Assembly: GCA_900620265.3 (NCBI GenBank)
Contig: UYNY03000046.1
Span: forward strand, 1-33,142
Length of the DNA stretch: 33,142 bases
Reading direction: 5' to 3'
DNA from: Nitrosopumilaceae archaeon
Lineage (GTDB): Archaea > Thermoproteota > Nitrososphaeria > Nitrososphaerales > Nitrosopumilaceae
Positions 7,667-22,507 of this stretch are shown piece after piece (positions within the stretch are counted from its first letter, which is position 1; each line of letters starts with the position of its first letter). A program made the position numbers and the translations under genes. The notes beneath the pieces are model-generated. The model ran no database searches. It was not told the origin of the DNA and saw nothing but the letters and a program-made list of their open reading frames with translations.

Positions 7667-8746
7667 GTGAAGCTGCGCACCGGATACACGACCGGGAGCT
7701 CCGCGACGGCGGCGGCCAGGGCGGCCCTGCTGGCAGTCGAGGGGCAGGAGATCCAGGACTCCGTCGAGATACTGCTCCCAAAGGGCAAGAGGCTGAGGAT
7801 CGGGATACACGCCTGCGCGTTCGGCCGGGATCGCGCGAGCTGCACCGTCATCAAGGACGGCGGCGACGACCCCGACGTGACGCACGGGGCCGAGATAATA
7901 TCAGAGGTCTCGCCGGCCGGCGCGCCCGGCGAGGTGGTCATAGAGGGCGGCGAGGGAGTCGGGGTCGTGACAAAGCCGGGGCTGGGGCTTGAGATCGGCA
8001 GCCCGGCGATAAACCCGGTCCCGAGGAGGATGATAGAGGAGAACATCAGGGAGGCCGGCGGCGCGATGCTGGACAAGTCCGGCGTCAGGGTGGTCGTATC
8101 GGTGCCGCGCGGGAAGGAGCTTGCGCCAAAGACCGACAACCCGAGGCTGGGGATCAAGGGCGGAATATCCATACTGGGTACCAGCGGGATCGTCGTCCCG
8201 TTCTCGACGGCGTCGTTCGCGGCGGCGGTGCGCCAGGCGATCGGGGTGGCGGCCGCGATGGGCGAGAGGGAGGTCGTGCTGACGACCGGCAGCAGGAGCG
8301 AGGACGGCGCGCGCGGCACCGTCCCGCTGCCGGACCACTGCTATGTGCAGATGGGCGACTTTGCCGGGTATGCCATAAAACAGTGCGCCGAGCAGGGGAT
8401 AGGCACGGTGCGCGTGGCGGGGTTCATCGGCAAGGTGGCAAAGATGGCGGCCGGCGCCAGCCAGACGCACGTAAAGGGCTCAAAGGTCGACACCGCGTTT
8501 CTTGCCGGCCTCGCCGAGAGGGCCGGCGCCGGGGCGGACCTCGCGGGCAGGATAAGGGCGGCCAACACGGCAAGGCACGTCCTTGAGATCGTCCAAGAGG
8601 CGGGGATCGACGGGTTCTTTGGCCTGGTGGCCGCCAAGGCGGCGGGCCGCATGAGGGCCCACTCCGGCGGCAGGGTCGGCGTCGAGGTGATACTCTTCGG
8701 GTTCGACGGGGGGGTCCTAGCCAGGGAATCAGAAGGTATTTTATGA
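7667..8746 (+). CDS. cbiD: Cobalt-precorrin-5B C1-methyltransferase
   Basis: Anaerobic cobalamin pathway enzyme that methylates C1 of cobalt-precorrin-5B using S-adenosylmethionine. The 359-residue protein starts with the CbiD signature RTGYTTGSSATAAARAAL and contains TKPGLGLEIGSPAINPVPR (about 103-121), TTGSRSEDGAR and a late RANTARH segment, in family order and at family length. The start is GTG at 7667, 26 nt after a TATA-like element. It heads the operon cbiD-cbiG-orf105-cbiX-cbiC; its stop overlaps the cbiG start (ATGA, 8743-8746). Presence of CbiD, CbiG and CbiX places the route on the early-cobalt, anaerobic branch, as expected for thaumarchaeal B12 synthesis. Confidence 0.95.
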   Translation: MKLRTGYTTGSSATAAARAALLAVEGQEIQDSVEILLPKGKRLRIGIHACAFGRDRASCTVIKDGGDDPDVTHGAEIISEVSPAGAPGEVVIEGGEGVGVVTKPGLGLEIGSPAINPVPRRMIEENIREAGGAMLDKSGVRVVVSVPRGKELAPKTDNPRLGIKGGISILGTSGIVVPFSTASFAAAVRQAIGVAAAMGEREVVLTTGSRSEDGARGTVPLPDHCYVQMGDFAGYAIKQCAEQGIGTVRVAGFIGKVAKMAAGASQTHVKGSKVDTAFLAGLAERAGAGADLAGRIRAANTARHVLEIVQEAGIDGFFGLVAAKAAGRMRAHSGGRVGVEVILFGFDGGVLARESEGIL

Positions 8747-9822
8747 AACCGGGCACGCACCACGACATGGAGACGGCCGTCATCGCGATAACCAGGAACG
8801 GGATAGGCATAGGCAGCCGCCTGCTCTCAGAGTTCCCGGAATGGGACGTGCTGGCGCCGGCAAAGCTCCGGGACGGCACGCCGGGGATCACCTGGTACGA
8901 GGAGCCGACCCCGAGGATGGTCGGCGAGGCGTTCAAAAGGTACGACGCGCTCGTCTGCGTCTTTTCGCTTGGCGCCGTCATCAGGCTGGTCTCGCCGCAC
9001 CTGGTCGACAAAAAGACGGACCCGGCCGTGATGGTGATAGATGACAGGGCCGGGTTCGTCATAAGCGCGCTGTCAGGGCACATCGGGGGCGCCAACGAGC
9101 TTGCAAGGCAGGTGGCGGCCAGGCTGGGCGCCACCCCGGTAATCACGACGGCCGCCGACGTCAATGATACCATCGCAGTCGATCTTGTGGGGCGCGACCT
9201 GGGCTGGTCCATAGAGGAGGGGTGCCCCGTTACCAGCGTTAGCGCCCACATGGTCAACGGCGACCCCATAGGAATCTGGCAGGACGCGGGGAGCCGCGCG
9301 TGGCGCGCAAAGATGCCGCCAAACGTCACCATATACAAGACGCTGGAGGAGCTTGACGGGTCCGGCAGCAGCGCATGCCTCGTCATCACGGACAGGATCG
9401 TCAGTCCCGCGATCGAGTCGGTCGTGTACAGGCCGCCGAGCCTGGTGGTCGGCGTCGGGGTGCACGGGGACACCCCGGCGGAAAAGATCACGTCAAAGAT
9501 AGCAGAGGTGCTCGAGGGGCACGGCCTGAGCCCCCGGTCCATATCCGCCATAGCGTCCATCAAAAAGCCCGCCGAGGTGCGGGGGCTGGCAGAGGCTGCC
9601 GGGCGGCTGGACGTGGACCTGGTGCACGTCGATCGGGAGAGGCTGGCAGAGGTCAGGGCCCCGAACCCGTCAGATACGGTGATGGCCTACGAGGGGACGG
9701 CGAGCGTCTCTGAGGCGGCGGCCATCCTAGTGTCCGGAGGCGGCCTGGTGGTGGAAAAGCAGAAATTCCCGCCGGATCTGACGGTGGCCGTGGCAAGGAT
9801 ACCCTCAGAGGGGGCCGGCTAG
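8743..9822 (+). CDS. cbiG: Cobalt-precorrin-5A hydrolase
   Basis: Opens the delta-lactone of cobalt-precorrin-5A, releasing acetaldehyde, directly before the CbiD step. The 359 residues show the N-terminal domain (VFSLGAVIRLVSPHLVDK near residue 70, then DDRAGFVISALSGHIGGANELA), a variable middle domain, and the C-terminal CbiG domain (LVVGVGVHGDTPAEKI, then ASIKKPAEVRGLAEAA and NPSDTVMAYEGTASVSEAAA). The start ATG overlaps the cbiD stop by four bases. An in-frame ATG nine codons on (at 8767) is an alternative and would give a more family-typical N-terminus. The TAG at 9820-9822 is followed at once by the ATG of orf105. Confidence 0.95.
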   Translation: MKPGTHHDMETAVIAITRNGIGIGSRLLSEFPEWDVLAPAKLRDGTPGITWYEEPTPRMVGEAFKRYDALVCVFSLGAVIRLVSPHLVDKKTDPAVMVIDDRAGFVISALSGHIGGANELARQVAARLGATPVITTAADVNDTIAVDLVGRDLGWSIEEGCPVTSVSAHMVNGDPIGIWQDAGSRAWRAKMPPNVTIYKTLEELDGSGSSACLVITDRIVSPAIESVVYRPPSLVVGVGVHGDTPAEKITSKIAEVLEGHGLSPRSISAIASIKKPAEVRGLAEAAGRLDVDLVHVDRERLAEVRAPNPSDTVMAYEGTASVSEAAAILVSGGGLVVEKQKFPPDLTVAVARIPSEGAG

Positions 9823-10140
9823 ATGACCCATACGGAATTGGATAATCTGATAGATGCATGGCAGAGACGTATGAGAACCAATAGTAAAGAGCCTGCAAGG
9901 CTTGTAGATCTAGAGGAGCTGGCTAGGGCAACGATTAAAACAATCAACCAAGGGCATAATGGTAACATAGAAGTTCTCGTCAATCAAATCAATATGGTGT
10001 TTTCAGGGTTGAATGCCAGAATCAGCAAAATCGAAGAAAAAATAGACCCGGAAACGGACATAGGTGCTGAGATTAAAGGTATAAAAAAGGAAATGACGGA
10101 TCTCAAGGAGATGACGGGGAGGCTGGGACAGCCGGAATGA
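9823..10140 (+). CDS. AT-rich 105-aa protein inside the cobalamin operon, unknown function
   Basis: A 105-residue hydrophilic protein I do not recognise. The first half (TELDNLIDAWQRRMRT, then EELARATIKTINQG) looks helical. The second half, LNARISKIEEKIDPE through IKGIKKEMTDLKEMTGRL, has hydrophobic spacing suggesting a short coiled coil; no cysteine, no signal peptide and no membrane segment are present. Its ATG follows the cbiG stop directly and its TGA overlaps the cbiX ATG (ATGA, 10137-10140), so it is fully embedded in the operon. Its base composition is unlike its neighbours: about 41% GC over 9841-10080 by hand count, against well above 60% for cbiG and cbiX, with many codons (AAT, ATA, AGA, GTT) that its neighbours avoid. 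Recent transfer, or a partner protein of a cobalamin enzyme, are both possible. Confidence 0.75.
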   Translation: MTHTELDNLIDAWQRRMRTNSKEPARLVDLEELARATIKTINQGHNGNIEVLVNQINMVFSGLNARISKIEEKIDPETDIGAEIKGIKKEMTDLKEMTGRLGQPE

Positions 10141-10892
10141 CCAGGCGCGGCATGCTCATCATAGACAGGGGTAGCAGGGAGCGCGAGGCCTCGGAGGAGC
10201 TGGAGAACATCTGCGAGATGATCCAGGCCGGGGGCAGGTACGCCTCGGTCCGGTTCTGCTTTCTGGAGGTGGTCCCCCCGTACATCGACGACGGGATCGC
10301 CGCCTGCCTCAAGGACGGCCTTGACACCCTGACCATCGTGCCGTACTTTTTGTACCCCGGAAAAAAGACAAAGAACGCCGTCACCGACGTGATGAGGATG
10401 CAGGCCGACACGGACGTAAAGTTCCGCGTCACAAAGCAGATGAGCATGCACCCGGCGATGGTCGAGATCGTCGAGAGCAGGATAACTGCCGCCCTCGAGG
10501 AGGGCGGGGTCGACCTCCCAAGGGAAAAGGTCGACGTGATGATAGTGGGGCACGGCAGCGTCGACCCCAACGCCAAGAGGTCGCTCGACTACGTGGTCAA
10601 CGCGCTGGCCCCGTCCTACAGGAACGTGAGCAGGTGCTGGCTCGAGATAGAGCAGCCTGACATCGCGGCCGGCGTGGCAACGTGCGAAAGGGACGACCCC
10701 GAGGTGCTCGTCATTGTCTTTTACTTTTTGCACGAGGGGGCGCACGTAAAGCTCGACGTCAACGCGGACCTAAAGCCGGCGCTCGAGAGATCCTCGATAA
10801 GGAGGGCGCTCCTCACAAAGCACATAGGGGCCGACGACAGGATGGTGAACCTGGTACTAGAGAGGGCAAAGGAGGTGGAGGATGCAGACTGA
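10137..10892 (+). CDS. cbiX: Sirohydrochlorin cobaltochelatase, two-domain form
   Basis: Inserts cobalt into sirohydrochlorin at the start of the anaerobic B12 route. The 251 residues comprise two similar CbiX-like halves: an N-terminal half beginning RGMLIIDRGSRER and a C-terminal half beginning VMIVGHGSVDPN. The C-terminal half keeps both expected metal or catalytic histidines (H139 in GHGS, H203 in HEGAHVK). The N-terminal half has R11 in the GHGS position and lysines in YPGKKTKN at the second position, so only one half looks catalytic. The start overlaps the orf105 stop (ATGA). The end overlaps the cbiC start by 11 bp. Sirohydrochlorin chelatases that load iron or nickel are related, but the operon argues for cobalt. 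Confidence 0.9.
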   Translation: MTRRGMLIIDRGSREREASEELENICEMIQAGGRYASVRFCFLEVVPPYIDDGIAACLKDGLDTLTIVPYFLYPGKKTKNAVTDVMRMQADTDVKFRVTKQMSMHPAMVEIVESRITAALEEGGVDLPREKVDVMIVGHGSVDPNAKRSLDYVVNALAPSYRNVSRCWLEIEQPDIAAGVATCERDDPEVLVIVFYFLHEGAHVKLDVNADLKPALERSSIRRALLTKHIGADDRMVNLVLERAKEVEDAD

Positions 10893-21263: not shown

Positions 21264-21794
21264 ATGGAAGAGACCCGTCAGGAGCGGCCCGGCATGCCTA
21301 GCTATTCAGCCACCCTGCTTGCCGACTATATGATTGCAGAGGGCAACGGCAGGCTCACCCCGCTCCATGTAATAAAGCTGGTCTATATCAGTCACGGCTA
21401 CACGCTGGCCATACACAAGACGCCGCTGACGCATGACAGGATCGAGGCGTGGCGGTACGGTCCGGTGTTTCCAGTCCTGTATTACGCGCTAAAGCGTCAC
21501 GGGTCTATGCCCATATCCAACCTATATTATTGTGGGACACGGGCAGACGTGAACGGGATCAGGGATCGCGGGGACTTCTTCAATGACGTGATTAAAGAGC
21601 CGGCGCGGGACATACTGGATCGTGTCCTGCATGTATACGGCGGCCTAACCGGAAACCAGCTGTCGGCCCTCACGCACAAAAAGGACACGCCTTGGAAGCG
21701 GTACTACAAAGAGGGGCAGATGAACATAGTTATCCCAGACGAGGCGATCCAGAGCCACTATGAAAAGCTGATAAAAAATGACAAACGCATCTAA
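21264..21794 (+). CDS. Panacea-domain (DUF4065, GepA/SocA-like) protein, putative antitoxin
   Basis: A 176-residue protein with the Panacea fold. The diagnostic core is LTPLHVIKLVYISHGYTLAI (31-50), then PLTHDRIEAWRYGPVFPVLYYALKRHG (54-80), and a later GGLTGNQLSALTHKKDTPWKRYY. This family neutralises many unrelated toxins when paired with a small downstream gene. Here the downstream gene encodes a two-helix membrane protein and overlaps by 17 bp, matching PanAT architecture. The start at 21264 fits the TATA spacing. An internal ATG at 21294 (MPSYSATLLADYMI) resembles typical family N-termini and is an alternative. GC content is clearly below the window average, and the pair lies between a gene desert and a tRNA-Gly, suggesting mobility. 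Other roles of the family (phage-associated, proteolytic adaptor SocA) cannot be excluded. Confidence 0.85.
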   Translation: MEETRQERPGMPSYSATLLADYMIAEGNGRLTPLHVIKLVYISHGYTLAIHKTPLTHDRIEAWRYGPVFPVLYYALKRHGSMPISNLYYCGTRADVNGIRDRGDFFNDVIKEPARDILDRVLHVYGGLTGNQLSALTHKKDTPWKRYYKEGQMNIVIPDEAIQSHYEKLIKNDKRI

Positions 21795-22086
21795 TGAGGA
21801 GAGCCTAGAGGATACAATACGTCTTCGAGACGAATTGGGGGGCACGGATGTCGTCGAAGACCGCACGATGCAGGGCGGGCCACCGATGCAGAAAAAGACT
21901 GCGTTTTGGTACGCCATATCAATAGTATACGCGTCGTTCGCATTCATGGCCGTGGTGCTGTTTTTTAGCGGATTCCAATTCATGGGGTTTTATCTTGAGG
22001 CAAACGTCCTGATAGCGCTGATAGGCACGATAATCGGATCACAAACCATCATACTTTTGAAAAAAGTGCTGAACTATGTTTTCTAG
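21778..22086 (+). CDS. Two-helix membrane protein, putative toxin of the Panacea pair
   Basis: A 102-residue protein with a hydrophilic, acidic first 40 residues and two membrane segments: about 42-66 (FWYAISIVYASFAFMAVVLFF) and 72-94 (around NVLIALIGTIIGSQTIILL), ending LKKVLNYVF. The ATG at 21778 lies within the last codons of the Panacea gene, so translation is probably coupled. No catalytic motif is visible. By analogy with membrane-acting toxins paired with Panacea antitoxins it might permeabilise or depolarise the membrane; this is inference. Local GC is low (about 35% over 22021-22080 by hand count). It could alternatively be a membrane anchor or sensor for the Panacea protein. Confidence 0.7.
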   Translation: MTNASNEESLEDTIRLRDELGGTDVVEDRTMQGGPPMQKKTAFWYAISIVYASFAFMAVVLFFSGFQFMGFYLEANVLIALIGTIIGSQTIILLKKVLNYVF

Positions 22087-22433: not shown

Positions 22434-22507
22434 GCGGAGTTAGTTTAGCCTGGTAGGACGTCAGCTTCCCAAGCTGAAGGCCGCGGGTTCAAATCCCGCA
22501 CTCCGCA
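22434..22507 (+). tRNA. tRNA-Gly (anticodon CCC)
   Basis: A complete cloverleaf of 74 nt. Acceptor GCGGAGT pairs with ACTCCGC, discriminator A. The D stem is GTTT/GGAC, the anticodon stem TCAGC/GCTGA with loop TTCCCAA giving anticodon CCC, and the T arm GCGGG-TTCAAAT-CCCGC. No intron is present and CCA is not encoded. It ends exactly one base before the stop codon of the convergent C39/TPR gene. The glycyl-tRNA synthetase that would charge it is encoded about 7.5 kb downstream. Confidence 0.95.

Follow-up and report, generated by a model that had tools for sequence, protein, structure and literature searches.

An AT-rich open reading frame of foreign composition, most likely acquired, at the cbiG–cbiX overlap of a Nitrosopumilaceae cobalamin operon

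How does an AT-rich gene come to lie, with no spare base on either side, between two GC-rich genes of cobalamin synthesis? The question is raised by a 33,142-nucleotide stretch of a Nitrosopumilaceae archaeon genome (hereafter the window), in which an orphan ORF occupies positions 9823–10140 of the forward strand and encodes, in 105 codons, a 105-aa product that runs MTHTELDNLI...GRLGQPE and is predicted to be helical. Upstream lies cbiG (8743–9822, +), encoding cobalt-precorrin 5A hydrolase (Pfam PF11760/PF11761/PF01890), whose TAG stop at 9820–9822 is followed with zero gap by the ATG of the ORF at 9823–9825. Downstream lies the chelatase gene cbiX (10137–10892, +; Pfam PF01903, E 5.6e-34), whose ATG begins at 10137 and shares ATGA, a four-base overlap, with the ORF, the stop of which is the TGA at 10138–10140. 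Among the neighbouring genes, the Pfam search recognized CbiD (PF01888, E 1.4e-90) and CbiC (PF02570, E 1.3e-68). The coordinates confirm a sequence-only reading of the locus, which had described an AT-rich 105-aa ORF between GC-rich cbiG and cbiX, starting directly after the cbiG stop and sharing ATGA with cbiX, and had taken the neat overlaps as a mark of long-standing co-translation.

The claim of long standing was not upheld by the cbiG–cbiX spacing in relatives, a comparison that the sequence-only reading had itself proposed. The cbiX gene is present in 215 of the 250 family genomes searched, and at 79 of 80 distinct relative loci the ORF is absent and a direct four-base overlap joins cbiG to cbiX, the remaining locus reading TAATG. 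The uninterrupted loci include those of the GC-rich relatives L084, L093, and L097, and the junction is likewise uninterrupted in Nitrosopumilus H13 (L058), the closest relative by tree distance, where it reads AGGATTCCAGGTTGAAGCGC. A tree built from the four Cbi proteins resolves the branch of the window only weakly, placing it with other GC-rich genomes at a support of 0.71; the same-genus genomes include some named Nitrosopumilus. These loci point clearly to an ancestral junction that had a start–stop overlap and no gene between cbiG and cbiX, and the putative insert, of ~314 bp, is found solely in this genome. Since the four-base overlap is the ancestral junction, present at nearly every distinct relative locus, it was inherited by the insertion rather than evolved, and a long-standing association fails because the overlap predates the gene.

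In gene order and in its ATGA/TTGA start–stop overlap, the locus resembles the Nitrosopumilaceae cbiG–cbiX junction, while it departs from it by a single additional ORF that keeps the overlap towards cbiX and abuts cbiG directly. The C-terminus of CbiG reads ARIPSEGAG* here versus ARIPG* in H13, a difference of four more codons. Smaller changes were also observed at the junctions of the GC-rich relatives: in L084 and L093, the N-terminus of CbiX is longer by about ten residues from ATGACTGCAG (MTA...), and the lengthened cbiX still overlaps the cbiG stop by ATGA; in L097, CbiG ends in a glutamine run (QQQQQQQQQ) right before cbiX, a lineage-specific change at the same junction.

The composition of the ORF is foreign to its surroundings, with a GC content of 43.1% over 9823–10140 versus 66% in the window and 64.9% in the genome, for which 556 kb of sampled stretches of the source genome were used; 2.8% of the 318-bp windows in this sample are as low in GC. 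Contigs C2, C7, C60, and C65 (L165, L135, L145, and L168), which read as N throughout, do not contribute to the sample. The GC content drops at ~9820 and climbs again at ~10100, and because the ORF is already GC-rich (~60%) over its final ~40 bp, the limits of the foreign part are uncertain. This tail also contains a 13-nt near-repeat with ATGACG, which occurs twice (AAGGAAATGACGG and AAGGAGATGACGG, 10087–10117, +), a possible local duplication by which part of the tail may have grown.

Several measures fit a coding sequence. The GC content by codon position (0.49/0.34/0.46) shows a mild coding-like pattern, and each of the five alternative frames of the real sequence contains stops. In random sequences with the ORF's own dinucleotide make-up (first-order Markov), a reading frame running uninterrupted from the left ATG to precisely this stop arose in 0.17% of trials (a chance of 0.0017). 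Codon usage, a comparison that the sequence-only reading had called for, gave a mean synonymous log-probability of −2.56 bits per codon under a model of the native cbi genes, −1.52 under one of AT-rich island genes, and −1.72 under that of a 35%-GC Nitrosopumilus, native genes scoring about −1.1 under the native model. By the first two scores, the codons of the ORF resemble those of the AT-rich islands, unlike those of its neighbours, and the earlier view that the ORF is foreign by composition is strengthened by the far better fit. The ORF looks protein-coding, and it was most likely acquired and has yet to be ameliorated, its last ~40 bases being perhaps an exception.

AT-rich DNA is not rare in this genome. 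A composition shared with many other genes, which the sequence-only reading had held to speak against a foreign origin, was found only in part, in the form of 24 AT-rich islands in the 556 kb sampled. Most other sampled AT-island ORFs sit hundreds of bases away from native genes, and among 18 examined by a crude gene call, the ORF described here is the sole one that is gapless on both sides; its unusual feature is this position within an operon, the islands themselves being frequent. A second AT-rich stretch of the window (21264–22086, +) contains a SocA/Panacea antitoxin-like gene (PF13274, E 1.4e-18) that overlaps by 17 bp the gene of a 102-aa, probably membrane-bound protein with hydrophobic stretches and no known family; the pair is likely a toxin–antitoxin cassette, with a tRNA-Gly gene (22434–22507) about 350 bases away. 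Elsewhere, about 6 kb of locus L160 (10235–16503) have a GC content of 31% and carry long ORFs, two on the forward strand (632 and 853 aa) and one on the reverse (593 aa). The genes of the 632- and 593-aa proteins face each other and their N-termini are very similar, features suggestive of a large foreign island that contains an inverted duplication.

Homologues of the ORF, the search for which had also been recommended, were sought at several taxonomic depths. None was found in the 250 family genomes besides its own, and no second copy exists in its own genome. Among the 400 sampled class genomes there was a single weak match (E 0.007, 27% identity) within a 303-aa frame, of the kind that coiled coils often produce by chance. 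A tblastn search against phages was empty, plasmids yielded no homologue, and pattern scans of IMG/VR viral and GTDB contigs, which detect close relatives only, likewise revealed none. PHROGs returned matches of the coiled-coil type only, the best being a fibritin neck whisker family (E 0.001), and Pfam, NCBIfam, PADLOC, and PDB sequences gave coiled-coil noise or nothing. Neither Pfam nor NCBIfam matched the ORF to a cobalamin-pathway family, in line with the sequence-only reading, and no paper on this cbiG–cbiX insertion was found in the literature.

ORFans are short, AT-rich, lineage-specific genes that are often attributed to phages and mobile elements. The ORF resembles them in being short, AT-rich, and confined to one lineage, with no detectable homologue outside it and with the orthologous place in relatives empty, while it differs from ORFans in general in its gapless seat within a conserved biosynthetic operon. 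It can be regarded as a candidate ORFan of one genome, with one conserved operon as its site. The product is likely a small helical protein: AlphaFold2, run on the single sequence, predicted four helices at a mean pLDDT of 68.5, with residues 49–73 and 79–102 at about 75–85 and the rest lower, including residues 3–43, which are likewise predicted to be helical at low confidence. A fold search against viral structures gave no match at E ≤ 0.001 with this model, which is too uncertain to interpret.

The reading that is likely to be correct explains both neat junctions by one event. Approximately 314 bp of AT-rich foreign, probably coding DNA, resembling the other islands, would have entered the pre-existing cbiG–cbiX overlap in an ancestor of one lineage; its source was probably a mobile element or virus. 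At the junction before insertion, a start codon would already have stood beside a stop codon. If the ancestral cbiX of this lineage opened with ATGACC right after cbiG, duplication of these six bases would have left one copy on each side of the insert, the left (9823–9828, +) starting the ORF and the right (10137–10142, +) ending it with its TGA, starting cbiX, and leaving cbiX whole. Both copies are read directly and form a possible target-site duplication, of which an ATG is expected anyway and solely ACC is informative, so chance could account for it. Ribosomes on the cbi mRNA would then re-initiate at the ORF once past the cbiG stop and, having translated it, would be handed on to cbiX, as they formerly were by cbiG; the small coiled-coil-like product of the ORF most likely takes no catalytic part in B12 synthesis. 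Because one insertion into a start–stop overlap could give both junctions, no co-evolution would be needed.

Known element types were considered for the insert. No terminal inverted repeats were found at its ends, and an Rfam scan of the site for an intron or riboswitch returned three sub-threshold chance matches only. A transposon, MITE, or intron was rejected for want of inverted ends, a second copy, and a convincing Rfam match, and no second copy that would mark a mobile repeat was found in the genome. A scan for promoters and terminators of the bacterial type is ill-suited to archaea.

Other origins of the ORF deserve weighing. It might be a captured piece of a longer foreign coding sequence, such as a long coiled-coil protein, that owes its start and stop solely to the duplicated junction; both do lie within the ATGACC repeats and the only similarities are of the coiled-coil kind, but the searches found no longer parent protein and residues 3–43 are also predicted to be helical, if at low confidence, which leaves this origin unlikely. 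There is a small chance that the gene arose de novo from non-coding AT-rich DNA that was open by chance and then became translated. The absence of homologues from every collection searched and the local duplications in the tail would fit such a birth, against which stand the open-frame chance of about 0.002, codon choice matching that of the island genes, and relatives that have no intergenic DNA at the junction to serve as raw material. An assembly or binning artefact was considered as the genome is a draft, probably metagenome-assembled, in 113 contigs, and only one genome has the insertion; that both junctions match the flanking genes exactly, with flanking synteny intact, and that the insert has no second copy and lies deep within a 33-kb contig make an artefact very improbable.

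A part for the protein in cobalamin synthesis, for example, as a small helical adaptor that links CbiG to CbiX or regulates metal insertion, is suggested by the operon position, the tight junctions on both sides, and its standing as the sole gapless ORF among those of the AT-rich islands examined. Every relative, however, manages without the ORF, no pathway family resembles it, and the tight junction is ancestral, so such a part is improbable. There is a very slender probability that a foreign gene, having landed in the start–stop overlap, was recruited to serve the CbiX chelatase or the CbiG hydrolase as a new partner or regulator specific to this lineage. A passenger translated by coupling is the most likely reading.

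Many sponge-associated Thaumarchaeota are reported to have a raised GC content, seven of 11 lying at 47 to 67% (PMC7848895), and that of Ca. Cenporiarchaeum stylissum is 66.24% (PMC6697440). Published work also reports that defence against foreign DNA is enriched in them. By its composition, the source genome is probably that of a sponge symbiont. The locus suggests that perfect-looking operon overlaps can come from one insertion, with no need for prolonged co-evolution, and a tight overlap is therefore weak evidence for the pathway membership of an orphan gene. It also suggests that AT-rich foreign DNA can reside even within a core biosynthetic operon of a GC-rich archaeal genome, here probably that of a sponge symbiont.
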